Below, piece after piece: positions 4,270 to 31,981 of a DNA stretch of 59,506 nucleotides. This DNA comes from a virus. Below the pieces are notes generated by a model that saw nothing but the letters and a program-made list of their open reading frames with translations, ran no database searches and had not been told where the DNA came from. Made by a program: the position numbers and the translations under genes. The stretch's first letter is position 1, and the number at the start of each line of letters is the position of its first letter. Where the stretch lies: IMG/VR virus record IMGVR_UViG_3300028666_000037, positions 1 through 59,506 of that record; one strand, given 5' to 3'.

Positions 4270-4517
4270 CACGTGACTCCGTTGTGATCGGGGCAAAGCG
4301 CGGCGAAACTGGTCAGCGTTCCTTCGAACCGTCCGCGCCTGCAGCGGCCCAGGACGTCGCTGCTGCGGCCCCAGCCGGTGCAATTGCCGCAGCCTCGCTC
4401 GGTCAGGATGAAAGGCGGCGCCGGCGGCTCATCGCTCCGGGGGATGGAGCGAGAGCCGCGCCGGGCCTCGGTCGCGGCGGCGGCTTCACGCCGTTGCGCG
4501 TCGAAGAGATCAGGCAT
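4269..4517 (-). CDS. Cys-rich small phage protein (putative zinc finger)
   Basis: 82 aa. C-terminal half contains CGNCTGWGRSSDVLGRC and later LCPDH: four cysteines plus a His spaced like a small metal-binding knuckle. The N-terminus is polar and starts MPDLFDAQRREAAAA. Overlaps its downstream ParB-like gene by one base and the upstream gene by 8 nt. Looks like a phage-typical zinc-binding small protein. Function unknown. Confidence 0.6.
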   Translation of the reverse strand: MPDLFDAQRREAAAATEARRGSRSIPRSDEPPAPPFILTERGCGNCTGWGRSSDVLGRCRRGRFEGTLTSFAALCPDHNGVT

Positions 4518-4761
4518 CGCACACCATTTCGACCGCGTCTGCCGAGGCGGCGGCGCTGATGCCGTTGAGGTTGAGATAGAGCACCGGCGCGTAGCCGGCG
4601 CTCATGCGCCAGCTCATGACGATGCCGATGCGCCCGTCGTGTAGCTTGACGCGGTCGCCGGTGCGCTTGCCCGGCGGCGGACCGAAGGCATCGGCCGGCT
4701 CGATCGGCACGAGGCCGCGCGCGGCGCGGATGCTGGCGAGGCTGACGATCTGCGCGCTCAT
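4510..4761 (-). CDS. 83-aa hypothetical protein
   Basis: Start ATG at 4761 (MSAQIVSLASIRAARG) overlaps the upstream stop as ATGA; a longer upstream reading would run into the previous gene. The middle reads GPPPGKRTGDRVKLHDGRIG then IVMSW, resembling a small SH3-like beta barrel (GDRVKLHDGRIGIV), followed by YAPVLYLNLNGIS. No family assigned. Tightly embedded in the early leftward operon. Confidence 0.6.
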   Translation of the reverse strand: MSAQIVSLASIRAARGLVPIEPADAFGPPPGKRTGDRVKLHDGRIGIVMSWRMSAGYAPVLYLNLNGISAAASADAVEMVCDA

Positions 4762-5042
4762 GGCACCATGCCCGCGCAGAGCACGGCTGCCGCGCCGATC
4801 GCCGCCGCAAAGCCGCACGCGACGAGGCCCAGACCGCCGACAATGATGCCGCGCAGCAAGCGGTCGCCGCGCCGGGCCCGGCGGCGCGCGCGCTCAACCG
4901 TCTCGGCGGCCGAGCTGTTGCAGATTTGGCCGTAGCGCACGCGCCTTGCGGTCTCCGCGCTGACTTGGAGGCGCTTGACGGTTGCGGGCGGTTTGACGAA
5001 AGGCGGCTGCCGATTGCCGAGAATGGATCCTTGAGCGTTCAT
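4758..5042 (-). CDS. 94-aa membrane protein with basic cytoplasmic helix
   Basis: Starts ATG at 5042 with an AAGGGG ribosome site about 9 nt upstream. Residues 1-60 are polar with an Arg-rich helix (ERARRRARRGDRLLRG), followed by one TM helix (IIVGGLGLVACGFAAAIGAA) near the C-terminus. Ends in an ATGA overlap with the next gene. Function unknown. Confidence 0.6.
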   Translation of the reverse strand: MNAQGSILGNRQPPFVKPPATVKRLQVSAETARRVRYGQICNSSAAETVERARRRARRGDRLLRGIIVGGLGLVACGFAAAIGAAAVLCAGMVP

Positions 5043-5090
5043 ATCATGCCCCTTCTGGGTGACGGTTCGATGCGGACCGGCGCGATTTTC

Positions 5091-5336
5091 CTAGGCGGCG
5101 TAATCCGTGCCGCGCAACGCGATGCGATCGCGGTTGAGGCGGCGGGCGAGGTTGGTCGCGATCGCCTTGCGCTCGGCGAAGGGCATGCGGCGATCGTTCA
5201 TCAAGACGGTCGCGGTGACCTGCGCCGCGCCGCTGAACGGATCGAACAATGCGAGCTCGATCTCGACCAGATCGCGATGCGCTTCGGCGCGCACCGTCGC
5301 CTGCATCGGTGCCGAGAGAAGCTGGATGCCGCTCAT
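5091..5336 (-). CDS. 81-aa hypothetical protein
   Basis: Begins ATG at 5336 in an ATGA overlap with the small TM gene upstream. Composition is mixed, with beta-prone segments (LVEIELALFDPFSG, AAQVTATVLMNDRR) and a basic helix (ERKAIATNLARRLNRDR). About 48 nt of spacer with a ribosome-binding site separates it from the next gene. No family recognised. Confidence 0.55.
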   Translation of the reverse strand: MSGIQLLSAPMQATVRAEAHRDLVEIELALFDPFSGAAQVTATVLMNDRRMPFAERKAIATNLARRLNRDRIALRGTDYAA

Positions 5337-5506
5337 GGCGCCGCGTCCTTGTCGACGGGCGCGCGCTCGCCGCGCTTCAGCGTGCGATGCCGGTCGAAGC
5401 CCGGTGTCGGCATGGCGGGCGGGCGGCGCCGACGGCGCATCACCACGACCGCGGCCACAGCGATGGCCAGCACGGCGACGGCGGCGATGATTTGAAAGAG
5501 CGTCAT
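5333..5506 (-). CDS. 57-aa single-TM protein
   Basis: Decoded directly: ATG at 5506, stop at 5333-5335. Sequence opens MTLFQIIAAVAVLAIAVAAV, one clear TM helix, followed by an MRRRRRPPAMP basic stop-transfer and a charged tail ending KDAAP. Both ends overlap neighbours by ATGA, which supports it as a real gene in the coupled operon. Function unknown. Confidence 0.65.
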   Translation of the reverse strand: MTLFQIIAAVAVLAIAVAAVVVMRRRRRPPAMPTPGFDRHRTLKRGERAPVDKDAAP

Positions 5507-5964
5507 GCCGCTTCTCCTTGTGACGAGGTCTCGAAGGCGTATTGGCTTGCGGTCGCGCGCGCGAACGAGATGAAAGCGCGGCGGCCGCGCGCGGGCATGC
5601 GCAGGATCAGCGCCGCGATCTCGACGCCAAGCGCGTAGTCATCGCCGGCGCTCGCATCGAGCGTCGCGATGTGATCCGGATTGGTGCCGGCCGCGACAAA
5701 GAAATAATTCGGCGTCACGCCAAGTGCTGCGGCGAAAGCGACGATCGCTTCGGGGCGCAGCGCGGTCTCGCCGCGCTCGACATAGGAGACGGTCGGCCCG
5801 CTCAGATGGACCATGAGGCCGAGCTCTTTCAAGGTGAGGCCGTGCACGCGGCGCAACAGGTGAACGCGGCGGCCGATCTCGACATCGATCGGGTGATGCG
5901 CCGGAACACGGCGGCGGAAGCGCGGCTTGGTGGCCGGGGCGGCCTCGACGGCGAGCGTATCCAT
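5503..5964 (-). CDS. XRE-family helix-turn-helix regulator
   Basis: 153 aa. Residues 26-80 form an HTH_3/XRE domain: IGRRVHLLRRVHGLTLKELG, then LMVHLSGPTVSYVERGETAL and VAFAAALGVTPNYFF. C-terminal half is helical. ATG at 5964 shares one base with the upstream stop; a GTG one codon earlier (5967) is also possible. As an early-operon DNA-binding protein it may act as a secondary regulator of phage or host genes; target unknown. It is distinct from the S24 repressor at 6696-7394. Confidence 0.85.
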   Translation of the reverse strand: MDTLAVEAAPATKPRFRRRVPAHHPIDVEIGRRVHLLRRVHGLTLKELGLMVHLSGPTVSYVERGETALRPEAIVAFAAALGVTPNYFFVAAGTNPDHIATLDASAGDDYALGVEIAALILRMPARGRRAFISFARATASQYAFETSSQGEAA

Positions 5965-14800: not shown

Positions 14801-16152
14801 TGAGCCTCTTCGGCCGCTTCCGCCAAATCTTCGCCGCGCGCGAGACCAGCGAGCCGAGCTACCCCGACCGGCATCGCGTGCCCTACGTCTTTCGCTCGCT
14901 CGCGGGGCCGGTCGTTACCCCCGACACCGCGATTACCGTGCCGGCGGTCTGGGCGTGCTTGCGCTATGTGAGCCAGACCGTCGCGAGCCTGCCGTGGCGC
15001 GTGATGCAGGAAACGCAGAAGGGTGGTGAGCTCAAGTCGAGCCATCCGATCGACAATCTGCTCAACAAGCGGCCGAGCGCGGAATGGTCGGCGTTCCAGT
15101 TCCGCGAGACCATGGTGCACTGGGCGCTCCGCTGGGGAAATGGTTACGCCGAGATCGAGCGCGATCAGCTCGGCCGGCCCTTCGCGCTCTGGCCCATTCA
15201 TCCGGAGCGCGTGCTACCGCGTCGCGATATCGAGAACGGCAAACTGGTCTTCGAAGTATCGAATGGTACGAAGGGCAAGGTCATCGTCGACGCGATGGAC
15301 ATGTTCCATTTGCGCGGGTTTGGCGAAGGTCCGATCGGCGTCAACGTCATGCAATATGCGGCCGAGAGCATCGGGTGGGCGAAGGCGGCGCAGCTCTTCG
15401 GCGCAGCTTTCTTTGGCAATGGGATGACCGTCAATGGCATCATCCAACAGAAGACGGCGCTGAAGCCTGAAGGCCTCGCACGCTTCAAAGAAGAGTTAAA
15501 AAATCTATTCAAAGGCGTGCGGCGCGCTTTCGACGTCATCGTGCTCGACAATGGCGCCGAGTTCAAACAAGTCCAGGTTGACCCCGACAAGGGCCAGTTC
15601 CTCGAAACGCAAGAGCATCTTGTGCTCGAAATCTGCCGCTGGTTTGGCGTGCCGCCGCACAAGGTCGCGGCGCTCGATCGCGCGACCCATAGCAACATTG
15701 AAAGCCAGACCGTCGAGGTCGTGGTCGACTGTGTGGTGCCTTGGGTCAAGCGGCTCGAGGAAGAGGCTGACTTCAAGCTCTTTGGACAGAACCGGCAAGC
15801 GTTCTATTCGAAGATCATGTTGGCTGCCTTGTTGCGCGGCGATGCTGCGGCGCGCGCGGCGCTCTACAAGACGATGTGGGAAACAGGCGCCTTCTCGGCG
15901 AATATGATTCTCGCCGGCGAGGACATGAATCAGATCGGGCCCGAAGGCGATAAGCATCTCGTGCAGGCCAATCTGACGACGCTGCAACAGATCGGCGCCG
16001 CGCCGATCGCGCTTCCTGCGCCCGGCACCGCCGCCGATCCCGATGCCACGGAAGAGAACGCCGAACCCGCGCCGGACGACGAGCCGGCCGAACGTACGGC
16101 GAAAGCCGCACTTATGGTATGGGCGAACGAATTGGATTTCGTCGATGGCTAA
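14797..16152 (+). CDS. Portal protein (HK97 family)
   Basis: 451 aa. Blocks VTPDTAITVPAVWACLRYVS, SLPWRVMQET, HPIDNLLNKRPSAEWSAFQF, GNGYAEIERDQLGRP and FGVPPHKVAALDRATHSNIE are typical of the HK97-type portal, the ring at the vertex through which DNA passes and to which TerL docks. C-terminus is acidic and disordered. ATGA overlap with TerL; its stop overlaps the collagen-like gene by 8 nt. Confidence 0.95.
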   Translation: MMSLFGRFRQIFAARETSEPSYPDRHRVPYVFRSLAGPVVTPDTAITVPAVWACLRYVSQTVASLPWRVMQETQKGGELKSSHPIDNLLNKRPSAEWSAFQFRETMVHWALRWGNGYAEIERDQLGRPFALWPIHPERVLPRRDIENGKLVFEVSNGTKGKVIVDAMDMFHLRGFGEGPIGVNVMQYAAESIGWAKAAQLFGAAFFGNGMTVNGIIQQKTALKPEGLARFKEELKNLFKGVRRAFDVIVLDNGAEFKQVQVDPDKGQFLETQEHLVLEICRWFGVPPHKVAALDRATHSNIESQTVEVVVDCVVPWVKRLEEEADFKLFGQNRQAFYSKIMLAALLRGDAAARAALYKTMWETGAFSANMILAGEDMNQIGPEGDKHLVQANLTTLQQIGAAPIALPAPGTAADPDATEENAEPAPDDEPAERTAKAALMVWANELDFVDG

Positions 16153-17074
16153 CCGCCTTCAGACGGGTGCGCTCGCGCTCGCGGCAAATGAAACCGCCGG
16201 TGCGCGGCCGAATGCCGGCGCTGGGCCTTGGGCTGCGGTCAATCGCATTCTTTCAGCACTTGGACGGCGCCTCACGGCGCTCGAGCAACGCCCGATTGCA
16301 CGCGATGGCCGTGATGGTTTCAACGGCCGGGACGGCATTAATGGTCTTGATGGCAAGGATGGCCGCCCTGGCGCGTCCGGCGAGGATGGCGCGCCTGGCC
16401 GCGACGGTCTCGATGGCAAAGACGGCATTAACGGTCTCGACGGCAAAAATGGCCTCGCTGGCATGGACGGCGCACCTGGCCGCGATGGCGTTGATGGCAA
16501 AGATGGCAAGAATGGTCTCGACGGCAAAGACGGTGCGCCCGGTGCGGATGGTAAGGATGGCGCGCCCGGCTGCGACGGCGTTGATGGCAAAGATGGCAAG
16601 GATGGACTCGACGGCAAAGACGGCGCACCTGGCGCGGATGGTGAGGACGGTACCGTCGGCCGCGACGGTCTTGCTGGTCGCGACGGTCGCGACGGCAAAG
16701 ACGGGCGCGGCATTGTCGCGGTCGAGCGTGACGCGCAAGGCCACGTTGTGCTGCGCTTTTCCGACGGTGCGAGCGAGATCTTCGATCTGAAGGGCCCTCC
16801 GGGCAAGGATGGCCGTGACGGGGTGAATGGCAAAGACGGCAATCCTGGCCATGACGGGCGCGACGGCAAGGATGGCGTTCCTGGAAAACAAGGGGCGCCC
16901 GGAAAAGCCGGCCGCGATGGCAAAGATGGCGCGGCGGGTGCGGCAGGATCGGCGCTCGAGCTCGGTTACGTGCAAAATGCCGAACTCTCCACGCGCAATC
17001 TCTCAAATCTGAATGTTCGCGAGCTCATCATCGATGGCGAGCGTCTGCGCGTTCTTGTATTGCCCGGAGGCTGA
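16145..17074 (+). CDS. Collagen-like Gly-X-Y repeat protein
   Basis: 309 aa. Residues 1-55 globular (MANRLQTGALALAANETAGA, then NRILSALGRRLTALEQRP), followed by about 40 Gly-X-Y triplets such as GKDGINGLDGKNGLAG and GPPGKDGRDG, split once by a non-collagenous insert (GRGIVAVERDAQGHVVLRFS), then a C-terminal cap of about 50 residues (LELGYVQNAELSTRNLSNLN). The repeats are rich in GKDG and GRDG, a common bacterial and phage collagen pattern that forms stable triple helices without hydroxyproline. Placement between portal and protease is unusual; such proteins are often fibres or head decorations. No scaffold signature. Confidence 0.85.
   Translation: MANRLQTGALALAANETAGARPNAGAGPWAAVNRILSALGRRLTALEQRPIARDGRDGFNGRDGINGLDGKDGRPGASGEDGAPGRDGLDGKDGINGLDGKNGLAGMDGAPGRDGVDGKDGKNGLDGKDGAPGADGKDGAPGCDGVDGKDGKDGLDGKDGAPGADGEDGTVGRDGLAGRDGRDGKDGRGIVAVERDAQGHVVLRFSDGASEIFDLKGPPGKDGRDGVNGKDGNPGHDGRDGKDGVPGKQGAPGKAGRDGKDGAAGAAGSALELGYVQNAELSTRNLSNLNVRELIIDGERLRVLVLPGG
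16306..16950. repeat. 9-nt codon repeats encoding Gly-X-Y triplets
   Basis: Tandem GGC-NNN-NNN codons (often GATGGCAAAGATGGC) underlie the collagen-like gene. Internal identity makes it prone to slippage and assembly error. Confidence 0.85.
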
Positions 17075-17915: not shown

Positions 17916-19298
17916 ATGAAAAAGGCCTCCCTGGCCCTGCTGGCCTGTGCAGCGGGACTTCCCATCTTCGCAATGGCGGATCCTGCCGCCATGCTGGAAA
18001 AGCTTCGCGCTGATCTCACGGCAGCGCGCACCGGTTCGGAAGCGATCGTCGCCGCGGCCGACGACGAAGGGCGCGACCTAACGCCCGAAGAATTGAAGGA
18101 CGTCGAAGCCTTCGCCGACAAGATTAAGGGACTGCAGCGTCAGATCGACGCGCGTTCCGCGCTCGTGCCGCAAGGGTCCGGCCGCCGGACGTCCGCCGAG
18201 CCTGCCAATAAGGATGGCATCATCATTCCCGCTCAGGCGCGTACCAATGATGGGCGCATGGGCTTCCGCAGCTTCGGGGAGTTCGCTCAATCGGTCCGCA
18301 ATCACGCGCGGCAGCGCTATGACGATGATGGCGTGAAGCGCCTCATGGCCGCGCAGACGACGCTCGGCAATGAAGGCACCGGTGCCGATGGTGGCTTCGC
18401 CGTGCCGCCGGATTTCCGGCAATCGATCTGGGTCAAGGTCATGGATCAGGAAAATCTCCTGACCCGCTGCGACCAGCTCGAGACCGCTTCCAACTCGATG
18501 ACCTATCCGAAAGATGAGACGACGCCCTGGGATACGACCAATGGCATTCAGGTCAATTGGGAAGGCGAAGGTCAAGCGCCGACGGTGACCAAGCCGCAAT
18601 TGCAAATGGCGACCATTCGCCTTGCAAAACTGATGGCGCTTGTGCCGATTTCGGATGAGTTGCTCGACGACGCGCCCGGTCTCGAGTCCTGGCTGCGCGC
18701 CAAGGCGCCGGCCAAGATGCAGGCCAAAATCAATACCGCGATCATCTCGGGCACCGGCGTCGGCCAGCCGCTCGGCATTCTCAATGCGAAATCGCTGATC
18801 ACCATCTCGGCCGAAACTTCGCAGGCGACCGCGACGATCTATTTCGCGAACATTCAAAAGATGTGGGCACGGCTCTATGCACCGTGCCGCCGCAATGCGG
18901 TCTGGTTGATCAACCAGGACGTCGAGCCGCAATTGAACGCCATGGCGTTCGATCCGAAAGCGACTTCGAAGGTCCCGGCCTATATGCCGCCTGGTGGCCT
19001 GTCGGAAAGCCCCTATGGCTTGCTGATGAGCCGACCCGTCGTGCCGGTCGAGGCCTGCTCGACCATCGGCACGGCCGGTGACATCATCCTCGCCGATCTC
19101 ACGCAATACATGGCGCTGAAGAAAGCCGGCCAGGACATCCGGACCGATGTGTCGATGCATCTCTATTTCGATCAGGCGCTCATGGCTTTCCGGTTCATCT
19201 TCCGCGTCAACGGCCAGCCCTATTGGGGTGATTCGATGAGCCCGAAGAACGGCTCGAATACCCGTTCCTGGGCGGTCGCACTCGCGACGCGGCCTTAA
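17916..19298 (+). CDS. Major capsid protein (HK97 fold)
   Basis: 460 aa. Residues 1-20 (MKKASLALLACAAGLPIFAM) look like a secretion signal; residues 20-105 form a coiled-coil delta/scaffold-like domain (MLEKLRADLTAARTGSEAIV, LKDVEAFADKIKGLQRQIDA); then the HK97 capsid with LGNEGTGADGGFAVPPDFRQ, PISDELLDDAPGLESWLRAK, SGTGVGQPLGILNA and AVALATRP. ATG at 17916 has the ribosome site; an alternative ATG at 17973 (MADPAAMLEK) has none. Confidence 0.95.
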   Translation: MKKASLALLACAAGLPIFAMADPAAMLEKLRADLTAARTGSEAIVAAADDEGRDLTPEELKDVEAFADKIKGLQRQIDARSALVPQGSGRRTSAEPANKDGIIIPAQARTNDGRMGFRSFGEFAQSVRNHARQRYDDDGVKRLMAAQTTLGNEGTGADGGFAVPPDFRQSIWVKVMDQENLLTRCDQLETASNSMTYPKDETTPWDTTNGIQVNWEGEGQAPTVTKPQLQMATIRLAKLMALVPISDELLDDAPGLESWLRAKAPAKMQAKINTAIISGTGVGQPLGILNAKSLITISAETSQATATIYFANIQKMWARLYAPCRRNAVWLINQDVEPQLNAMAFDPKATSKVPAYMPPGGLSESPYGLLMSRPVVPVEACSTIGTAGDIILADLTQYMALKKAGQDIRTDVSMHLYFDQALMAFRFIFRVNGQPYWGDSMSPKNGSNTRSWAVALATRP

Positions 19299-19392: not shown

Positions 19393-19932
19393 ATGTCGCT
19401 CAATCAACACGCTATCGAAAAGCTGCAGATCGTCTCCGGCTTCCTACCGGTCGATATGCATACGGCCGCTCCGTCTTCCGACTACGTCAGCCTCAAGAAT
19501 TATGGCCGCTGCGCGATCGTCTTCTTCAAGGCGATCGGTACCAACGGCGAGGATCCGACCATCACTTTGTCGCAGGCGTCGGACGTCTCGGGCACCGGCA
19601 AAAAAGCGCTCAATTTCTCGCGCATCGATAAGAAGCAGGCCGCGACCAATCTCTTGTCGACCGGCACATTCACAACCTCGACGTCAGGCGTGCCCGCCAC
19701 GCATGACAGCTTCGCCACGGCCAATTCCTGGACCAATACCGATCTCGCGGAGCAGGCGGCGATCGTCGTGATCGATGTCAAAGCCGAAGATCTCGACGTC
19801 GCGAACGGCTTCGATTGCGTCATCGCCGAGATCGGCGATGTCGGTACCAATGCGCAGCTCGGCTGCATTCTCTATCTGCTGCACGAGCCGCGCGAGCAAT
19901 CGGGCACGCTGCCTTCCGCGATCGTCGACTAA
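19393..19932 (+). CDS. Structural protein, head-decoration candidate
   Basis: 179 aa. Beta-rich (VSLKNYGRCAIVFFKAIGTN, TITLSQASDVSGTGKKAL, AAIVVIDVKAEDLDVANGFD), with a hydrophobic end CILYLLHEPREQSG. Lies between capsid and appendage genes with ribosome site GGGAG. The order capsid-hairpin-this gene suggests a decoration or head-completion protein. Family uncertain. Confidence 0.55.
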   Translation: MSLNQHAIEKLQIVSGFLPVDMHTAAPSSDYVSLKNYGRCAIVFFKAIGTNGEDPTITLSQASDVSGTGKKALNFSRIDKKQAATNLLSTGTFTTSTSGVPATHDSFATANSWTNTDLAEQAAIVVIDVKAEDLDVANGFDCVIAEIGDVGTNAQLGCILYLLHEPREQSGTLPSAIVD

Positions 19933-19956: not shown

Positions 19957-19980
19957 GGCCGGTGCCGCGCGGCGCCGGCC
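19957..19980 (+). terminator. GC-rich hairpin between head genes
   Basis: GGCCGGTGCC-GCGC-GGCGCCGGCC: 10-bp stem (one G-T pair) with a 4-nt loop, followed by GGTGAAGCC, so not a standard terminator. Second strong hairpin within 700 bp of the capsid gene. Confidence 0.5.
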
Positions 19981-20003: not shown

Positions 20004-20294
20004 ATGCCCAAAATCCGGTTTACGCAAAATCACGTGCTGCATGATGAGCATCGCGGCACCGATCGCGAGACCAAGTTCGGGATCGGCGATATTCGTGAAT
20101 TCAGAGATTCGACCTGCGAATTCTGGAAGAATCTCGGGCTTGCTGAGGATTACGTCCCGCCGGTGAAGAAACTCGCTGAGCGTGCGGCACCGGCTCCGGC
20201 TGACCCAAGTCCTGAAGTGCAGGTCACGGCAGCCTCCGTCAGCGCGACAGTCATCCCAGCGACGGCCAAAATCGAGAAAGCGGTAGGGAAATAA
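20004..20294 (+). CDS. 96-aa hypothetical protein (head region)
   Basis: Opens MPKIRFTQNHVLHDEHRGTD, central FGIGDIREFRDSTCEFWKNL, then a Pro/Ala-rich tail. Ribosome site AAAGGAAT just upstream. Followed 6 nt later by the glycosyltransferase cassette. Placement suggests a head-related protein. No family recognised. Confidence 0.55.
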   Translation: MPKIRFTQNHVLHDEHRGTDRETKFGIGDIREFRDSTCEFWKNLGLAEDYVPPVKKLAERAAPAPADPSPEVQVTAASVSATVIPATAKIEKAVGK

Positions 20295-20300
20295 GCTTTC

Positions 20301-20930
20301 GTGCTGACCGTCGCTTGCGTCCTGCGTTCCGGCGGTATTTACAACCCGAATTGGGTCACCCGGCTGCGCCGTCAAGTTGATCGCCACCTGAGCGAGCCAT
20401 GCCGGTTCGTCTGTTTCACTGACCGCGATGGCTTGCCTTGCGAGCGAATTCCACTCGAGCATGCGTGGCCTGGATGGTGGGCGAAGCTCGAGCTCTTCCG
20501 CTTGCCGGGCCCGGTGCTTTATCTCGATCTCGATACGCTCGTGCTGGGCGATCTCGGCGATATTGCCGCGCTCGCGCGCGGCCGGCCCTTCGTCATGCTG
20601 CGTGATTTCTATCAGGTCACGCGGCGCGGCTCCGGCGTCATGGCTTGGTCGGGTGACTCCTCTGAAATTTATGAAATCTTCGCGGACGCCCCGCTCCATT
20701 GGATGGAGAAGTCCGATCGCGGCGATCAGGGCTTCATCGAGCAAACCGCGCTCGGCGCGATCTCGGCGCTCTGGCAATCGGAACTGCCGGGCCAGATCGT
20801 CAGCTATAAGCGCGATGCTTGCGATGTAGCGGCGCCTGCCGGCGCGCGACTTATGTGTTTTCATGGCGCGCCGAAACAATGCGACCTGCCGCCGACGCAT
20901 TGGGCGCGGCGCCTGTGGGATGCGGCGTGA
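20301..20930 (+). CDS. Glycosyltransferase-like protein (GT8-type DxD)
   Basis: 209 aa, GTG start. MLTVACVLRSGGIYNPNWVT opens a GT-A fold; VLYLDLDTLVLGDL contains the metal-binding DxD (Asp76-Leu-Asp78) as in GT8 enzymes, WPGWWAKLELFRL precedes it, and MCFHGAPKQCD near the end resembles the late His-Gly motif. It should transfer a sugar from a nucleotide-sugar; donor and acceptor unknown. First of four consecutive genes joined by TGATG or ATGA overlaps, in the head region. Confidence 0.8.
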   Translation: MLTVACVLRSGGIYNPNWVTRLRRQVDRHLSEPCRFVCFTDRDGLPCERIPLEHAWPGWWAKLELFRLPGPVLYLDLDTLVLGDLGDIAALARGRPFVMLRDFYQVTRRGSGVMAWSGDSSEIYEIFADAPLHWMEKSDRGDQGFIEQTALGAISALWQSELPGQIVSYKRDACDVAAPAGARLMCFHGAPKQCDLPPTHWARRLWDAA

Positions 20931-21559
20931 TGTGGTTGCTGCCGTCACGGGGACGTCCGCAGCTCATCGCCCGGGTTTTTTCTAAGACAGTGACGACCGA
21001 GCCCGGCGTTGTCGGTATCGATGAGGATGAAGTCGATCTCTATTCAGATGTCGCGTTGCCGCGGCGCTGGATCTTTCACGTGTGTCCGCGACTCTATCTC
21101 GGGCCAAAGCTCAATTATCTGGTCGGCCAGTTCCCGGGGCGGCCTTGGTACGGCAATATCAACGATGACATGCTGCCGGAAACTCAGGGCTGGGATGGGC
21201 TTCTGCCGCAAGCGGCCGGCCGCCGTGGCATCGCCTGGGCCGATGACGGGCTCAATCGCCGGCTTGGCGCGGCTGCTTATGGTGGCGAGCTGATCCGTGA
21301 TCTGGGCTGGCTCGCCTGTCCGGCGCTGAAGCATTTCTATATCGATGATGTGCATGAATTGATCGCCGCCGAGCTGGCGGTTGGGACGCTGTGCCGCGAC
21401 ATCCGCATCGCCCATCTTCATTGGAGCGCCGGGCTGACGCCGCGCGATCGCACGACGAATGAGCGGCCGCCTTCGGATGCCGACCGTCATGCTTTCGAAG
21501 CGTGGCGCGTTGCGGCGTGGCCGACGGTGCGCGAGCGGCTGAGAAACGGGGCGTCATGA
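20930..21559 (+). CDS. Glycosyltransferase-like protein 2
   Basis: 209 aa from ATG at 20930 (TGATG overlap). Starts MWLLPSRGRPQLIARVFSKT, the LPSRGRP opening seen in phage and bacterial GT-A proteins, then GIDEDEVDLYSDVALPRRW and an acidic GNINDDMLPETQGWD motif, then IAWADDGLN. No membrane segment. Probably a companion glycosyltransferase; acceptor unknown. Confidence 0.65.
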   Translation: MWLLPSRGRPQLIARVFSKTVTTEPGVVGIDEDEVDLYSDVALPRRWIFHVCPRLYLGPKLNYLVGQFPGRPWYGNINDDMLPETQGWDGLLPQAAGRRGIAWADDGLNRRLGAAAYGGELIRDLGWLACPALKHFYIDDVHELIAAELAVGTLCRDIRIAHLHWSAGLTPRDRTTNERPPSDADRHAFEAWRVAAWPTVRERLRNGAS

Positions 21560-22428
21560 TCCGCTTTTTTTGTCTCGTCTATGGTGAGCGCTATCTCGAC
21601 ATGCTGGAGCGAGTCGCGGTGCGTTCGCTGCTCCAAAGCGACAACCGTAGAGCGCTACATCACCAAGCGAATACGCAGGTGGCGCTCTATACCGACGTTG
21701 CCTCGGCCGATCGCGCGGTTGCGCTTTTGAGCCGGCTCGCGCATGTCGAGCTCAATATCATGCCGCGCGTTGACAACGCGGGTGAGATGCTGCGCCGCGC
21801 GATGACGGCCGAAATCGCGGCTTGTCTCATGCGCGATGCGACGATGATTACCCTCGGTCCGGATTGGTTCTGGGGCGACGGCTCGCTGCATCATCTGCAA
21901 ACGCTTGTACGCGGCGCCGATGCTTGTATCGCGGCGCCGCATCCGCGGGTTGATCACGACCGGTTTCTCGCCGCGTTGCCCGATGGCGATATCGATAACC
22001 GGCAGCTGGTCGGGCTCGCGCTCGAGACTTTGCATTGCACCTGGCGCGACGCGCGCGTGCCGGCTGACATGGCCAATTGCTGGAAAACCGGCATCGCTAT
22101 TCAAAGCCTGGGGCGCGGACTTTACGCCGTGCATCATCTTCTGCCGTCGATTTGGCTGGCGCACTTCCGGCCGAGCGACCTCGATTTTTTCGCCCATCAC
22201 GATAAGTGCGGCGTCTGGGATCATTACTGGCCGGCAAAGCTGGTCGAGGAAGGGCGTCAGATCGTCGTCGCCGACAGCGATATCGTTTTTCTCGTGGAGT
22301 TGACGCATCCGGATGAAAACCGGCCGCAGTTGCGGTCGGTCGATCAGCGCGACCCTTTTCGCTATCGCGGCGATCTCGCTCATCATCGTGCCAATCGTGC
22401 TATCGTCTCGGGCTGGCGCTCGCGCTGA
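21556..22428 (+). CDS. Glycosyltransferase-like protein 3
   Basis: 290 aa from ATG at 21556 (ATGA overlap). Opens MIRFFCLVYGERYLDMLERV followed by AVRSLLQSDNRRAL, then QVALYTDVASADRAVALLSR, like GT-A proteins that start with a soluble nucleotide-binding half. ATMITLGPDWFWGDGS may hold an acidic site. A DYW-like RPSDLDFFAHHDKCG follows. No exact family; inference from cassette and fold-like pattern. Confidence 0.55.
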   Translation: MIRFFCLVYGERYLDMLERVAVRSLLQSDNRRALHHQANTQVALYTDVASADRAVALLSRLAHVELNIMPRVDNAGEMLRRAMTAEIAACLMRDATMITLGPDWFWGDGSLHHLQTLVRGADACIAAPHPRVDHDRFLAALPDGDIDNRQLVGLALETLHCTWRDARVPADMANCWKTGIAIQSLGRGLYAVHHLLPSIWLAHFRPSDLDFFAHHDKCGVWDHYWPAKLVEEGRQIVVADSDIVFLVELTHPDENRPQLRSVDQRDPFRYRGDLAHHRANRAIVSGWRSR

Positions 22429-23105
22429 TGGATCTCGTTCTCGATTACAGCCGGCAAGAGGAATGCTGGACGCCGGAGGTTTTATGGCGTGGCCAGGACG
22501 TCTTCATTCTGGGTGGCGGACCGAGCCTGCGCGATGCGGATCTGAGCGGCCTTGCGGCGCGCCACGCCGCCGGCTCGGCGCGCGTGATCGCGGTCAACTC
22601 GTCGCATCTGCTGGCGCCGTGGGCCGATATTCTCTTCTTCACCGACAATTCCTGGTTTGAGTGCCACGTCGATATCGTGCGCCAGTGGCCGCAGCTCGTT
22701 GTCACCTTTTCGCGCGCGACCAAGGCGGCACTTCCCGACAAGGTGCGGCGCATCCGTGGCATTCTGATGCCGGAATTCCCGCCGCTGAGGTCGGAGATGG
22801 TGCGGCTCGGCCAATCCTCTGGCCAGTCCGCGATCAGCCTCGCCATTGCCATGGGCGCGACGCGGATCGTTTTGCTCGGTTTCGACATGCGCGAGGACGC
22901 GGGCCGGTCGCATCATCACGACGAATATCGCAACACCGACCCGAAGCTCTATACGCGCGATTTTCTGCCGGGCTTTTGTGGTTGGGATGCGGACGCCAAG
23001 GCGGCCGGTGTCGAGATTTTGAATGCCACGCCAGAGTCCGCACTGATGGAATTCAAACAGATTTCTCTCGCCAGCATCCTTTCCCGCGCCGACACACGGG
23101 AATGA
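22428..23105 (+). CDS. DUF115-like (MptE/6-HMP pyrophosphokinase fold) protein
   Basis: 225 aa. VFILGGGPSLRDADLSGL (GGGPSL), ARVIAVNSSHLLAPWADILF, FFTDNSWF, then SSGQSAISLAIAMGATRIVL followed by LLGFDM, matching DUF115-type proteins. Members occur in flagellin-glycosylation loci (Maf proteins) and pterin metabolism. Its place directly after three glycosyltransferases argues for the glycosylation type. TGATG overlap with the previous gene. Confidence 0.75.
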   Translation: MDLVLDYSRQEECWTPEVLWRGQDVFILGGGPSLRDADLSGLAARHAAGSARVIAVNSSHLLAPWADILFFTDNSWFECHVDIVRQWPQLVVTFSRATKAALPDKVRRIRGILMPEFPPLRSEMVRLGQSSGQSAISLAIAMGATRIVLLGFDMREDAGRSHHHDEYRNTDPKLYTRDFLPGFCGWDADAKAAGVEILNATPESALMEFKQISLASILSRADTRE

Positions 23106-23122: not shown

Positions 23123-23150
23123 AGGGCGGCTCCTGTCGGGGGGCCGCCCT
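23123..23150 (+). terminator. Hairpin after the glycosylation cassette
   Basis: AGGGCGGC (23123-23130) pairs with GCCGCCCT (23143-23150), 12-nt loop, then TTTC. Weak T-run, so perhaps partial termination that separates the cassette from the appendage genes. Confidence 0.5.
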
Positions 23151-25444: not shown

Positions 25445-28400
25445 TTGCCGCATCGCCGCCGCGCCCAGCTCACGGTAACGCACGCACCGACGCCTTCGGG
25501 CAGCGGGGCCACGATCACAACCTTCAAAGAGCGCTCGACGACGAGCGCCGTGAAGCCCTTTCTGATCGGCCTGCCGCAATTTCCGGAAGGCATGACGGAC
25601 GGCCCGCTGTCGCTGAATATCGCGGAAGGCCAGGTCGTCCCGCTGGTCTATTGGCCGGATGGCAGCATCAAATTTGCTGCCGCTGCCGGCCATGGCACTT
25701 TCGTCGCCAATACCGATCTGACGATTTCGGTCGTCGAGACGAGCTCAAGCGGCACCAATCTGACGCCGGCGAACGTGGCGGCCTCCTCGGCCTTCAACGT
25801 CGCCGGTCAGAACTACGTCGATCTCGGCGTCGGCGGCATCGTCGATCTCTCGACCCTGCTCGCCAGCCCGCTCATGACGGTCATGGCGGGGCCGCAGCAC
25901 GAGCAGATCATCTATGGCAAGACGCAATCCGGCGTCTTTGTCGAGTTTCATGTCGACTATTACAAATTCGGCTCGGCCGAAATCTATGTCGCGATCGACA
26001 ATGGCTGGGTCGATATTGCCAATGCCGATCGCGCCTATACCTGCAAGATCGTCATCGGCGGCGTTACGGTGTTTGGCCCGACCGCCATCACCCATCTCGC
26101 TCATACGCGGGTGCAGGGCAATGCCTGGGTCGGCATCACGGATCCCGCGCTCGTGCCGACGCACAATGTCGCCGACATCGTCGCCTCGAAGCTCATGCCG
26201 AATTTCTTCGGCGATGCGCCGCCGGCAAGCTTCCCGCCCGGCAGCCAGAACGAGGGCTTGCTTCTCACTGGCCTCGTCACTGCCTATACGCGCGGCGGCA
26301 ACGGCAATTGGGATAGCGACAGCGCCGGGCCCGGCTTTCACAACGCGGTCGGTTGGACGCCGACTTGGGACAATCTCTTCATCACGTCGCAGGCCGACAA
26401 TCGCGCCTATAAATCGGTCCTCGCGAATTCCGAGATTCTCGCCGGCACGCAGCCGATCGTCTGGCGCGGCTCGACCGACACGGCGGCATGCCTGCCGTCG
26501 CGGCCTTCGGTCTATCCGACCTATACCTTCGAAGGTCCGAATGGCGGCGGTTTCGGGACGCCTGGCCTCACGGCGGACGGCGTCAATTTCTGGGAAGACG
26601 CGCATCACGGCTCGGGCGGTTATCTGGCGTGGCTGCTGACCGCCAAGTGGCGGTTCAAGCAGATCATGGATTTTCAATCGGCGCTTTGTTACCTGTGCGA
26701 GAATTCGAGCTCGGCGCGCGGTACCGGCGTCAACAAGATCATGTTCCCGCAGACCCGTGGGATGGCGTGGCGGCTCAGAACCTGGGGGCAGCTCGCGAGC
26801 GTGGCGCCGACCGGCGATCTGGTCGCGACGGATTATCGCGCGGTCGCGAGCCGGCAGATCGATGTCATGCTCGCGACATCGCAGCTGTCAGGACAGAACA
26901 CCCGCGGCATTGCCTATGATGCGGAATGCCGCGACAACGTCGATAGTCTCACGGTCGCGCAGGGACGGCCGTGGCAAAAGGAATATCTCGGCGACGAAAT
27001 CTGCGCCCTAATCGATACGAAGGCGCTGACCGATCTCACCAACACGATCGCGCTGCGTGATTTCACCGCCGACTATCTGCTCGGCTTGCTCGGCGAAAAC
27101 ACAAACGGCACGACCTATCCCTTCACTTATGCGGCCAATTCGCTCTTCATCGAAGGGCCGACCTCGAACACGCCGGACTATACCGATCTCTATGACGATT
27201 GGGTGGCTGTCTTCAATGCCAACAAGGGCGTCAATTTCACCGATAATGGCATCAACAATACCCTGCAGGGCGGCGGCGCAGCGACGCCCGGCAACGCCGC
27301 AAAGGGTTATTGGGGTTATATTCTCCCGTGGCTCTCGCGACTTATAGACCAGGACGTTCCGCAGGCGCAGTCGGCCTATAATCGCCTCACGAGCGCGGCC
27401 AATTGGCTCGATGTGCGCAATTGCGTCGGAACGCCTGGCGACAATTTCGGGACGATCCCGACCTTTGGTGTCTCGCCGCGCAGCGCGCTCTCAAAGCTGC
27501 TCGCGACCATGGCACCGGGAAGCTGGAAGGCAGTCTCGGGCTCGCAACTCGCCTCGGTCGCCTATAATGCCGTCACGTCGGCGGCGGATTATAACAGTGC
27601 GGAATCGACCGCTATTCAGGGCGGCTCCGGCGTCAAAAGCGTCTTTGAAGCCTGGGCCGGCGCCGCCTTCGACACGCTCAATCGCCGCGTCGTCATTCCG
27701 GCGCAAGGCGGCCACCACGACTATTACGGCAACGAGGTCTATATCTTCTCGCTCGAGACGCTAACCTGGTCGCGGGTGACGACGCCGAGCGATATCCGCG
27801 GCCTCAATATTTCTTCGGGCAATCCTTGGGTTCTCGACGCCTATCCGGACGGCAATCCGTTTCCGCACCATTCCTATTGCGCGAACGTCTATATGCCGTC
27901 GAACAACAAGATTCTCTGCGCCTCAGGCGGCAGCGAGAGCGGCGGCAGCAATCGCGGCTTCATCTTCGACATGGCCGCGGTCGGCGCTGCGCTTCCGACA
28001 CTCGCCGGCTGGACGCACACGCCCACTTATACAAGCCCCTTCGGCGGGACGATCGGTTCCGGCGTGCCCGGTCTTTGCGCCTGCTGGGACGGCACGTCCA
28101 ACCGTGTCTTCATTATCGGCAACGATAACAATCTCGGCGGCGCCTGGTACGATCCGGTCGCCAATACCTACGCCTTTGCCGCGGTCAACGCCGTGCTGCC
28201 CGACTATCATATGACGGGCGCGCTCGACACGGCGACGGGCGAGTTGTGGTGCGTGGGGCCGTTCAACCTCACCAAGATCAATCTTGCGACGCTGACCACG
28301 ACCCAGAATGTTGCCTGGACAGGCAACGCCGGCGGATTGCAGGGCGGCTTCAGCTATCCCGGCTGGGAATACCATCCGCCGAGCGGCAATTTTGTCGGGT

Positions 28401-28621
28401 GGACGGGCGGCAATACGCTCGTGCTGTTCAATCCGGTGACGAAGGTTTTCACCCAGTGGACAGGATCCCATGTCGGCGGCGACACGGTGCCGGCTTTCAA
28501 TGATGGCGGCGGCGTTGGCTCGGGCTGCTTCAAGCGCTGGATATGGGACGCCGTCGACGAGTGCTTCATTCTCGCCAATCGTGTGACCGAGAACGTCTAT
28601 GTCTATAAGCCGGATTTTTGA
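25445..28621 (+). CDS. Large virion appendage protein with C-terminal beta-propeller
   Basis: 1058 aa; TTG start at 25445, 1 nt after the previous stop. N-terminal 650 residues are beta-rich with no catalytic motif I can name (TTFKERSTTSAVKPFLIGLP, VPLVYWPDGSIKF). Residues about 700-1058 form a Kelch/galactose-oxidase-like propeller: GGHHDYYGNEVYIF (about 754), ASGGSESGGSNRGFIFDM, DYHMTGALDTATGELWCVG, GWTGGNTLVLFNP. The same module recurs in the protein at 49216-51456. Likely receptor-binding or glycan-binding. Confidence 0.65.
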   Translation: MPHRRRAQLTVTHAPTPSGSGATITTFKERSTTSAVKPFLIGLPQFPEGMTDGPLSLNIAEGQVVPLVYWPDGSIKFAAAAGHGTFVANTDLTISVVETSSSGTNLTPANVAASSAFNVAGQNYVDLGVGGIVDLSTLLASPLMTVMAGPQHEQIIYGKTQSGVFVEFHVDYYKFGSAEIYVAIDNGWVDIANADRAYTCKIVIGGVTVFGPTAITHLAHTRVQGNAWVGITDPALVPTHNVADIVASKLMPNFFGDAPPASFPPGSQNEGLLLTGLVTAYTRGGNGNWDSDSAGPGFHNAVGWTPTWDNLFITSQADNRAYKSVLANSEILAGTQPIVWRGSTDTAACLPSRPSVYPTYTFEGPNGGGFGTPGLTADGVNFWEDAHHGSGGYLAWLLTAKWRFKQIMDFQSALCYLCENSSSARGTGVNKIMFPQTRGMAWRLRTWGQLASVAPTGDLVATDYRAVASRQIDVMLATSQLSGQNTRGIAYDAECRDNVDSLTVAQGRPWQKEYLGDEICALIDTKALTDLTNTIALRDFTADYLLGLLGENTNGTTYPFTYAANSLFIEGPTSNTPDYTDLYDDWVAVFNANKGVNFTDNGINNTLQGGGAATPGNAAKGYWGYILPWLSRLIDQDVPQAQSAYNRLTSAANWLDVRNCVGTPGDNFGTIPTFGVSPRSALSKLLATMAPGSWKAVSGSQLASVAYNAVTSAADYNSAESTAIQGGSGVKSVFEAWAGAAFDTLNRRVVIPAQGGHHDYYGNEVYIFSLETLTWSRVTTPSDIRGLNISSGNPWVLDAYPDGNPFPHHSYCANVYMPSNNKILCASGGSESGGSNRGFIFDMAAVGAALPTLAGWTHTPTYTSPFGGTIGSGVPGLCACWDGTSNRVFIIGNDNNLGGAWYDPVANTYAFAAVNAVLPDYHMTGALDTATGELWCVGPFNLTKINLATLTTTQNVAWTGNAGGLQGGFSYPGWEYHPPSGNFVGWTGGNTLVLFNPVTKVFTQWTGSHVGGDTVPAFNDGGGVGSGCFKRWIWDAVDECFILANRVTENVYVYKPDF

Positions 28622-28677: not shown

Positions 28678-31344
28678 ATGGCCTTTGATCAAGCGATCAA
28701 TTTTCGCGGCACGAGCGGCTATGTAACGGATACTGGCACCGAGGCGCCAATCCTCGGCACCAATCAGGCAGGGTCGATCTATCTCTCGACGACGGCGCAA
28801 GGCAATAATGTCGGCTGGGAAGAAAATCTCGGCGGCTCGGCAGCAGATCGCAGCACGGGCGTCGATCATCGCCTGGCGGGTATCAATTATGCGCCGCCCG
28901 GTCAAGATGCCTATTTCCGAATCGATTTACCGTCGGCAGGCACTTATCGCATTCACCTGGCGGCGGGCGACGCATCCTTCGCCAATGGGCCTTTCAAGGT
29001 CGAGATCGTCGATAACACGACGGTCCTGGCGACGCCGGTCAATAATGCCGCGACCTCGTCGGCCAATCATTATTTCGACGCAACCGGCGTCGAGCGGACG
29101 AGCGACACGGACTGGGCCAACAACAACGCTTATGTCGATCTGACCTTTTCCTCGACCGTCTTCCGGCTGCATGCGGTCGGGATGGGGGGCTATTGCGTTC
29201 TCGCCTATTTGCGCGTCCAGGACGCGCCGAGCGGCACGACCTACAATCAAGGCTGTACCGGTTCGACCGCACCGGTCGCCTCGCGTAGCACACAGACGGG
29301 CAAAATTGCGCGCGCAAGCGACAGCGCCGCTGCAACCAGGATATCCCAGAGCGGGATTATCCGGCGCGGCGCGACGAGCGCCGCCGCAAGCCGTGCGTCG
29401 CAGACGGGACATCAGGCCTCGGCGAGCAACAGCGCCGTGGCATCGCGCGCGGCGCAGATCGCGCAAAGTAAAACCATCACGGCGACGACATCGCCGGTCG
29501 GGTCGGAATCGAGCATCAGAGGCCGCGTTTCACAGGCGAGCAACGCAGCGTCGGCAGCGCTCACCCGAGGGCTCGCGAAGACCTTGCAGGGCACGGTCAG
29601 TCCGCTGGCACTGCGGACGGCGCTCGTCAGTACGGCGCGAGCGCTCTCGAATTCGGCCGCTGCATCGCTGAAGCGTCAGGCGCAAAAGATAGCGGCGGCA
29701 ACGACCGCGCCCGTCACGAGCGCGTCGCGGCGCGCGGGCAAGATCGCTGCGGCGATCAACAACGCTGTCGCTGCCTTGGGAACGTCCTTCTCGGGCGCGC
29801 CGCGCTTCGATCAGGGCATCAACTTTCGCGGATCGTCCGGCCTCGTTGTCGACGCAACCAATGAATTCCCGATCCTTGGCACAAACCAAGGCTCTTCGAT
29901 TTATCCCGTCACGACGACGCAGACCAATAGCGCGGGCTGGGAAGAAAACATCGGCGCCTCGGCGGCAGATCGAAATGCCGCGATTGATCGGCGTCTTGCC
30001 GGCATCAACTACGCCGAGCCTGGCCGCACCTCTGACTTCCGGATCGATTTGCCGCATGCCGGGACGTTCCGGATCACGGCGGCGATCGGCGATACCTCGT
30101 TTCAAAACGGCCCGATGACGGTCGCGTTTCTCGATGGCTCGACGGTTCTTTTTACACCGGTCAACAATCAGACGATGGGCGCGGCCAATCATTTTTTCGA
30201 TGCGTCTGGCGTCGAGCGCACGAGCGACGCGGATTGGGTCGCCAATCAAGCCTCGAAAAGCCTAACCTTCGCGTCGACCATCTTTCGCATGCGCGTCACG
30301 GGCGGCACCGGATACGGCGTCGTCGCGCATGTGCGCGTGCAGGATGTAGCAACCGGCACGACCTTCACGCAAAGCTGCCTCGCCGCAACCTCGGCCGCGG
30401 CAAGCCTTACCAAGGGTCATCTGCTATCGAAAGCCGCCGCCGCCTCGAACGCGGCGGTAGCCTCGATCACGACGCTCAAGACCAAGCTCGGTCTTGCCAC
30501 CAATGCGGCGCTCGCGTCGATGAAGCGCGTCCCGGGCAAGCTGCTGCGCGCGAATTCGACCGCAGCCAATCCGTGGGGCATCGCCTTTAGCAGCGCTTTC
30601 GGCCCGATCGTCGCCTCGCTGCTCAAATCCAAGACTTCGGGTGGCGGCGGTCTCACGCAATCCGCTCAGGCGTCGACCGCGCCCTCCGCGCGGCTCGTGC
30701 GACAAGGTCAAAAACCGGCAGCGGCGTCGACTTCACCGGTCGCGTCGCGCGTCGGTTTGCCCGGGAAATTGGCCAGGGCTTCGACTGCCGCCTTGGCGCG
30801 GCGGGCGTTTTTGATTGGCCGCGCCATTGCCGTTGCCGTGGCCGCAATCGCGACGCGCGTGAGTCAGCCGGCCAAGGCCAGTCCGACGCAAACCGCGCCG
30901 GTCGTGTCATCCTCGGCGACGCGCGCGGTATCGCAATCGGGTTCGGCAAGCGTTTCGCTCTCAGCCACGCTGGTCAAGGCGCTGGCACGCTTGCTGCCCG
31001 CGATCAATGTCGCAGTTCCGACCGTCAATCATGCGGCGACGCATCAGACGCCGGTCGCGGCGACGGCCTTGAGCGCGCCGGTTGCCTCGGCGGCCCATCT
31101 TCTGGGCAAAAGCGCGCCGGCGGCGACAACGCCGCAGGCGTCAGGCTTGCGGCAAATCGCCAAGCGGTTGACGACGAGTACGTCGCCGGTCGCACGTCTT
31201 TTGCGCGCTCTGATTGGCGGCATCACGCGCCCGATCGTCCGGGTATCGACGGCGGCCGTGACGATTTTTGCGCGCAGCCGGCCCGACGCGCCCCAGGCGG
31301 ACGCGCGCGGCTCCGAGGATCAGGCTGGACCGAGAGGAGATTGA
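28678..31344 (+). CDS. Large repetitive appendage protein: two copies of a beta domain plus 18-aa repeats
   Basis: 888 aa. Two domains of about 190 residues, at 1-190 and 376-566, are clear duplicates: both have INFRG.SG, ILGTNQ, GWEEN.G.SAADR, RLAGINYA.PG and AxHVRVQD/AYLRVQD elements, with malectin-like beta folds. Between and after them run Ala/Ser/Thr repeats of about 18 residues with a basic residue (consensus SxAVASxxxxxGKxxAA). The C-terminus is basic. Possibly a fibre or tail-associated adhesin. The 18-aa repeat type occurs in several phage metagenome proteins of unknown role. Confidence 0.55.
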   Translation: MAFDQAINFRGTSGYVTDTGTEAPILGTNQAGSIYLSTTAQGNNVGWEENLGGSAADRSTGVDHRLAGINYAPPGQDAYFRIDLPSAGTYRIHLAAGDASFANGPFKVEIVDNTTVLATPVNNAATSSANHYFDATGVERTSDTDWANNNAYVDLTFSSTVFRLHAVGMGGYCVLAYLRVQDAPSGTTYNQGCTGSTAPVASRSTQTGKIARASDSAAATRISQSGIIRRGATSAAASRASQTGHQASASNSAVASRAAQIAQSKTITATTSPVGSESSIRGRVSQASNAASAALTRGLAKTLQGTVSPLALRTALVSTARALSNSAAASLKRQAQKIAAATTAPVTSASRRAGKIAAAINNAVAALGTSFSGAPRFDQGINFRGSSGLVVDATNEFPILGTNQGSSIYPVTTTQTNSAGWEENIGASAADRNAAIDRRLAGINYAEPGRTSDFRIDLPHAGTFRITAAIGDTSFQNGPMTVAFLDGSTVLFTPVNNQTMGAANHFFDASGVERTSDADWVANQASKSLTFASTIFRMRVTGGTGYGVVAHVRVQDVATGTTFTQSCLAATSAAASLTKGHLLSKAAAASNAAVASITTLKTKLGLATNAALASMKRVPGKLLRANSTAANPWGIAFSSAFGPIVASLLKSKTSGGGGLTQSAQASTAPSARLVRQGQKPAAASTSPVASRVGLPGKLARASTAALARRAFLIGRAIAVAVAAIATRVSQPAKASPTQTAPVVSSSATRAVSQSGSASVSLSATLVKALARLLPAINVAVPTVNHAATHQTPVAATALSAPVASAAHLLGKSAPAATTPQASGLRQIAKRLTTSTSPVARLLRALIGGITRPIVRVSTAAVTIFARSRPDAPQADARGSEDQAGPRGD

Positions 31345-31351
31345 CGCGGCA

Positions 31352-31981
31352 ATGCAGTCAATTCTGACGGTCACAACGGCAGCCTCGACGCGGGATTTCA
31401 CGCGGCTCGACACGGTGCGCCAAGAGCTTTCGATCAGAGGCCGCCAGGACGATGCGCTGCTCTTGCGCTGGATCCGCGAAAGCTCCGCGGCGATCGAGGA
31501 TTATCTCACGCGCCGGATCGTGCTCGAGACCATCTCGGAAGTTTTTCGTCTCGACCATTCCTGTCGTGAGGTCGCCGCCGCCGTACCGTTGCGCTTGTCG
31601 CGCTGGCCCGTCACGGCGATCGCTTCGATCACCGAATGCGATCAAGCCTTGCAGACGACAGATTACGAGCTCGCGTCGGACAGCGGACTCCTCTGGCGCC
31701 TCTGCGACGATCGCCGCCGCCCCTGGAACTGGGGCAAGGTTACCATCGCCTACACGGCGGGTTATGAGCTGCTCAAGACGCTGCCACGGGCGATCGAGCA
31801 GGCCTGCCTCGAACTCATCAAGCTGCGCTGGTCGGCGAAGGGACGCGATCCTACGGTCCGTGCCGAGCGGGTCGAGGGCGTGGACGAGGTGACCTATTGG
31901 GTCGGCGCGATTGGCGAGAATGGCGCGCTGCCGCCCAAGGTCACGGCGTTGATCGATAGTTATCGGGAGCCCAATCTATGA
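31352..31981 (+). CDS. Head-tail connector (gp6-like)
   Basis: 209 aa, ATG at 31352 chosen for the GGAGA site upstream. ALLLRWIRESSAAIEDYLTR, RLSRWPVTAIASITECDQAL and DRRRPWNWGKVTIAYTAGYE are typical of HK97 gp6-like connector adaptors (DUF3199/gp6). Ends in an ATGA overlap with the next gene. Confidence 0.8.
   Translation: MQSILTVTTAASTRDFTRLDTVRQELSIRGRQDDALLLRWIRESSAAIEDYLTRRIVLETISEVFRLDHSCREVAAAVPLRLSRWPVTAIASITECDQALQTTDYELASDSGLLWRLCDDRRRPWNWGKVTIAYTAGYELLKTLPRAIEQACLELIKLRWSAKGRDPTVRAERVEGVDEVTYWVGAIGENGALPPKVTALIDSYREPNL

Follow-up and report, generated by a model that had tools for sequence, protein, structure and literature searches.

Virion glycosylation is already known in mycobacteriophages, reportedly including Che8 (gp108-110), Corndog and Myrna, the phages treated by Freeman et al. 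in 2023. According to two papers, mycobacteriophages encode glycosyltransferases, and their capsid and tail-tube proteins are reported to be glycosylated (PMC12363180, PMC12619734). A bacterial parallel is offered by the Maf flagellin glycosyltransferases, whose central domain, PF01973, is reported to resemble Cst-II and which put nonulosonic acids, and in tests also Neu5Ac and Kdo, on Ser/Thr of surface loops (PMC11339370). In phage P1, pmgO (phrog_4603-like), pmgP (DUF115-like) and pmgQ (phrog_1962-like) are grouped together. CRISPRi and deletion showed all three to be dispensable for growth (PMC10695390), which is what one would predict of genes with a decoration function.

Here we analyzed one entire IMG/VR record (IMGVR_UViG_3300028666_000037, 59,506 nt; hereafter the window), in which four genes, g1 to g4, are inserted between the major capsid protein (MCP) and head-tail adaptor genes. 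Judging from family assignments and gene neighborhoods, these genes probably constitute a moron for virion glycosylation, which an apparently temperate siphophage of the HK97 type carries in its capsid-adaptor slot.

Four overlapping genes beside the capsid gene

The cassette (20301-23105) consists of four real plus-strand genes (Table 1), and the successive overlaps of 1, 4, and 1 nt agree with the 1-4 nt given in an earlier note on this DNA; the ATG of g2, at 20930, shares 1 nt with the g1 stop. Its placement among head genes was likewise borne out. Terminase, portal, ClpP-like protease and MCP genes lie on the 5′ side, while the adaptor and then head closure follow on the 3′ side, with tape measure, distal tail and tail fiber genes further downstream. 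Given this gene order and the integrase, the phage looks like a temperate HK97-type siphophage. The AT skew of the cassette is strongly negative (about -0.10 to -0.18) and differs from that of the flanking genes, which fits acquired cargo, but coding content could also cause such skew.

Hairpins had been proposed to bound the cassette on both sides. Both sequences do fold, but the one at 19957-19980 (-33 kcal/mol, z -4.6, without a U tract) lies between after1, the conserved gene directly 3′ of the MCP gene, and a separate head gene, and is therefore no cassette boundary; the one at 23123-23150 barely exceeds chance (z -1.7). Neither was listed by a terminator scan. A fourth glycosyltransferase had also been counted outside the slot (46970-47941). 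A match of its product to the GT2 family was indeed found, but it falls below threshold; the one relative is a jumbo-phage protein, from Xanthomonas phage XaC1 (43% identity).

Between MCP and adaptor the window carries, besides after1, the small conserved gene and the cassette, several further small genes and a pair of large proteins that look appendage-like and lack a PHROG family. The first (25445-28621, 1058 aa) has a sub-threshold kelch match, and a similar-looking kelch-like protein occurs in the corresponding interval of one relative (L139, 8195-9349). The second (28678-31344, 888 aa), also without a Pfam family, contains an internal duplication: a domain that starts FDQAINFRGTSG and a similar one that starts FDQGINFRGSSG sit among Ala/Ser/Thr-rich repeats. 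Upstream, a collagen-like gene (16043-17074) lies between portal and protease and overlaps the portal gene by ~110 nt; its homologues keep this position in relatives, whether or not the MCP-adaptor interval is occupied.

Table 1. Coordinates of the cassette and of the genes that frame its interpretation (positions in the window).
Feature	Position	Strand	Assignment and remarks
MCP (major capsid protein)	17916-19298	+	major head protein of phrog_10 (1.4e-45); anchors the slot on the left
after1, conserved protein directly 3′ of the MCP gene	19393-19932	+	candidate acceptor
Small conserved head-region protein	20004-20294	+	left slot edge; homologues precede the slot in relatives
g1	20301-20930	+	phrog_1962 glycosyltransferase, GT8-like; PHROG 6e-46
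g2	20930-21559	+	phrog_14945 glycosyltransferase; PHROG 2e-19
g3	21556-22428	+	orphan, possibly GT-A-like; without Pfam or PHROG family
g4	22428-23105	+	phrog_4603 (4e-39), stand-alone DUF115/MptE-like (Maf_flag10-type) transferase domain
Head-tail adaptor	31268-31981	+	phrog_442, 8e-31; right anchor of the slot
Possible fourth glycosyltransferase	46970-47941	+	PF00535, 0.12, sub-threshold; outside the slot
Integrase	52434-53516	-	

Predicted activities of the four products

The description of g4 as DUF115-like is consistent with its phrog_4603 assignment and with a match to PF01973 (MptE-like/DUF115; 1.1e-7) that, at 32.3 bits, falls just under the Pfam cut-off of 34.6 bits; relatives of g4 are sub-threshold against this family too. 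The confident AF2 model of g4 (pLDDT 90.4) has as its top PDB fold match an MptE-type HPPK, 8sd5 (E 2.3e-5, TM 0.47-0.49), and N57, D73, G132, H162 and N199 are invariant. The PHROG name of phrog_4603, alpha-2,3-sialyltransferase (GT42), is unsupported, since the g4 profile reached only a non-significant E of 0.14 against Cst-II, which was also absent from the 50 best fold matches listed.

Three genes had been called glycosyltransferase-like, and for g1 and g2 this stands. The product of g1, a homologue of P1 PmgQ, contains DLD (D76/D78), GDQG and FHG-PK (FHGAPK) motifs. A profile built from it and ten relatives matches glycogenin-1 (GT8; E 4e-5) across the DxD, GDQ and KP motifs, such that DLD at 76-78 aligns with the glycogenin DxD metal motif, and GDQG and FHGAPK align, in order, with its GDQG and HFLGQTKP-type stretches. 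We call g1 GT8-like rather than GT8, as Pfam, searched to E 1, gave no match for it, GT8 included. In a ten-member subfamily of phrog_1962 (with genes from L027, L030, L031, L099 and L023), GLD replaces DLD, which may reflect another metal ligand or inactivity; the activity of this subfamily is uncertain for that reason.

The g2 product is 27-32% identical to Streptomyces phage glycosyltransferases. It also matches phrog_2675, annotated as DNA methyltransferase (3e-5), and phage glycosyltransferases often target DNA (PMC12619734); both points would suit a cassette that glycosylates phage DNA, as a base hypermodification against restriction. However, we recognized neither a hydroxymethylase gene nor any other gene for a base precursor beside the cassette, and in relatives the genes of the phrog_1962, phrog_4603 and PmgP families are concentrated near those of the capsid. 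To our knowledge, DUF115 genes plus hexapeptide acyltransferases, which accompany them in relatives, are not a known DNA-modification set; this further weakens DNA glycosylation, which we regard as very improbable.

The third presumed glycosyltransferase, g3, belongs to no Pfam family or PHROG, and no relative was found among the phages and viral contigs searched. Its relatives are weak matches to uncharacterized proteins in bacterial genomes (best E 7e-10) that share ..YGERYLD../..DGSL.. motifs. The best of them come from the orders of two prophage hosts, the Hyphomicrobiales and Rhodospirillales groups, and one has a sub-threshold GT2 match. Codon-position GC of g3 (0.69/0.44/0.70) is similar to that of neighboring genes and consistent with a coding gene, and its single-sequence AF2 model has a pLDDT of 36. 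A glycosyltransferase function for g3 is plausible.

A recurrent slot in related phages

We gathered relatives through MCP and after1 searches and defined the slot as the interval from MCP to adaptor. This conserved-neighborhood search, which the earlier note had suggested as a check, revealed a recurrent variable slot in which sugar-modifying genes are enriched. Many of the 127 slots left after duplicate removal are empty, and 62 extend at least 0.9 kb beyond after1; 28 of these 62 carry phrog_1962-, phrog_4603- or PmgP-type genes. Occupied slots often hold sugar-type enzymes, comprising phrog_1962, DUF115, hexapeptide acyltransferases, methyltransferases and, once, GT41. Profiles of phrog_1962, phrog_4603 and PmgP together gave 39 matches in 166 kb of slots vs. 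4 in 1046 kb outside, a ratio that is descriptive only because the loci are related and partly redundant. Two leading Pfam families, MptE-like (14) and hexapeptide transferases (13), account for 27 of 131 slot ORFs, alongside methyltransferases, FkbM, sulfotransferase, DUF6716 and one GT41. Past the adaptor, a sample of 125 ORFs yielded no sugar-modifying Pfam family and mainly matches to connector and tail families. A search of the open-access literature, with subscription papers outside its scope, returned no description of this capsid-adjacent slot.

Individual slots range from empty to elaborate. Those of L015, L016 and L101 hold nothing except two conserved small genes, which shows that the cargo is dispensable. 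Others carry DUF115 and a methyltransferase (L014), two phrog_1962 genes (L022), or a hexapeptide transferase with a possible glycosyltransferase and DUF115 (L018); in five (L023, L027, L030, L031, and L099), a hexapeptide transferase accompanies phrog_1962 and DUF115. The slot of L167 contains a GT41 gene of the protein O-GlcNAc-transferase type (4125-5627; 6e-40, with a weak TPR match), which is unusual in a phage.

Slot contents of this kind could also serve the host envelope. Acting in the lysogen or in the late phase of infection, the enzymes might modify LPS, capsule or another surface glycan and so block superinfection or assist progeny release. The phage looks temperate, the hexapeptide acyltransferases and FkbM/RfbT-like methyltransferases of sister slots are common in surface-glycan loci, and the weak relatives of g3 are bacterial. 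Against this, no gtrABC-type flippase (GtrA) or bactoprenol-glycosyltransferase (GtrB) family was found for g1-g4 in Pfam or PHROGs. The cassette lies inside the capsid-connector block and not with the integrase, as does the g4 homologue in phage D3, and the L167 slot contains a protein glycosyltransferase type. On balance, we consider envelope modification unlikely.

The slot itself might be no more than a tolerant insertion point that collects unrelated morons, with sugar enzymes of diverse and unlinked roles and with the after1 loop described below hitch-hiking. The spread of slot sizes, from about 0.4 to 12 kb, and the variety of contents, Laminin_G proteins included, are in keeping with this, as is the non-independence of the loop association on the MCP tree; the large appendage-like proteins mean that the slot is not pure glycan cargo. 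Yet hexapeptide transferase, phrog_1962 and DUF115 genes recur together, which is unexpected for random morons, sugar-modifying families are confined to one side of the adaptor in the ORFs sampled, and the g1 and g4 families are also paired beyond the slot, in unrelated phages. We therefore hold a purely tolerant slot to be improbable, more so than envelope modification.

These pairings also qualify the statement that no described phage has this exact set: it holds for the exact four genes, but the g1 and g4 families co-occur in P1, in XacN1 (ORF373-375, paired as in P1) and in others. In L002 and L003, phrog_4603, an FkbM methyltransferase and phrog_1962 adjoin connector genes. A single ORF in L004 (207-1511), directly before a head-connector-type gene, joins a g1-type glycosyltransferase to a region that we labeled DUF115-like from reading the sequence; the two core functions may be naturally fused here.

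A candidate acceptor and comparison with known systems

The after1 protein is conserved with or without slot cargo, and in the window it contains a Ser/Thr-rich loop, FTTSTSGVPATHDSFATANSWTN. Such a loop (insertion consensus ...KSTS-SPATNDTFNTTNGTWTN...) was found in after1 of 14 of 140 loci. A phrog_1962 gene is present in the slot of 12 of these 14, vs. 6 of the 126 loop-free loci (Fisher 2e-11, kinship ignored). On the MCP tree, however, the loop changes only five times, and independent pairs in the same direction (1.8 vs. 0.5) are not significant; most of the Fisher p-value thus reflects shared ancestry, and a test for an independent link on this tree did not reach significance. Exceptions occur both ways: the records of L139 and L056 show the loop but lack phrog_1962, and three loci (L022, L071, and L102) have phrog_1962 but no loop. 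Two different phrog_1962 subfamilies accompany the loop, most loop loci carrying the GLD-type one, and the window, L023 and the main clade lie mutually apart on the MCP tree. These separate positions and the two subfamilies speak in favor of a functional link, while co-transfer of adjacent genes could also cause the association. We defined the comparison only after noticing the pattern in some 20 loci; loci added later (e.g., L136, L140-L144) mostly agreed. We regard the association as a lead and not as a result.

As acceptor, the earlier note had favored, among others, the collagen-like protein. We rejected it: a homologue also occurs at L015, where the slot is empty, so the protein appears unlinked to the cassette. 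A possible acceptor is after1, through its Ser/Thr-rich loop, and it is the better candidate of the two. The wider proposal of a virion-glycosylation system thus loses its collagen-like acceptor but otherwise appears the most economical and best-supported reading of the cassette, given a capsid-adjacent slot enriched in sugar-modifying genes.

In the scheme that we infer, g1-g4 would be made together with the late structural genes and would assemble a short O-linked glycan on a virion protein from activated sugars of the host, with the after1 loop as candidate acceptor. Either g4 (DUF115/Maf-like) or g1 (GT8-like) may place the first sugar onto Ser/Thr in a surface loop, and g2 and g3 would then extend the glycan, in an order that is provisional. 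A plausible donor for g4 is CMP-Kdo, which would be available in any LPS-bearing, Gram-negative host. The resulting coat would affect how the virion adsorbs, how stable it is or how it is recognized. Among relatives, glycan genes are swapped at the same slot. A broader extension is tentative, and we rate it as doubtful, albeit less so than the alternatives above: proteobacterial (including alphaproteobacterial) HK97-type phages may share an exchangeable “glycan island” adjoining the capsid gene, in which swappable transferases, acyltransferases and methyltransferases make strain-specific O-glycans on the Ser/Thr-rich loop of a capsid-associated protein. Enzyme and loop would be exchanged together, and the island would be to phages what O-antigen loci are to bacteria.

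If virion glycosylation is the correct reading, many uncultivated and prophage-borne siphophages would have swappable capsid glycans, and the phenomenon would extend from mycobacteriophages to Gram-negative phages, using different enzymes. The same reading would hint at what P1 pmgO, pmgP and pmgQ do, and the after1 loop provides a concrete candidate acceptor.

Several known loci resemble parts of the cassette. The pmgO-pmgP-ppp-pmgQ run of P1 has phrog_1962-like, phrog_4603-like and DUF115-like genes side by side, but it is without g2- or g3-like genes, includes a phosphatase and does not adjoin the capsid gene. Pseudomonas phage D3 has a phrog_4603 gene (orf7) between MCP and adaptor; in “Tetraselmis viridis virus S20”, the capsid-to-adaptor/head-closure interval holds a longer head cluster with phrog_4603 gene(s) and other glycosyltransferases; the gene sets of both differ from g1-g4, and we know of no functional test of either. 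The Maf flagellin O-glycosyltransferases have a PF01973-type catalytic domain, which g4 resembles at a sub-threshold Pfam score, whereas g4 is a lone domain of 225 aa without Maf's flanking domains, and no flagellin is involved. The nearest known function to the proposed role is mycobacteriophage virion glycosylation. Che8-type systems likewise have glycosyltransferase genes in short overlapping runs, but these lie at the right genome end and not beside the capsid gene, and the hosts differ from those of the cassette phages. The cassette enzymes appear unrelated by sequence to the mycobacteriophage ones: between Che8 gp108-110 and g1-g4 we found no sequence similarity, and their PHROGs differ. 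The cassette would thus work like a known kind of system, with different parts.
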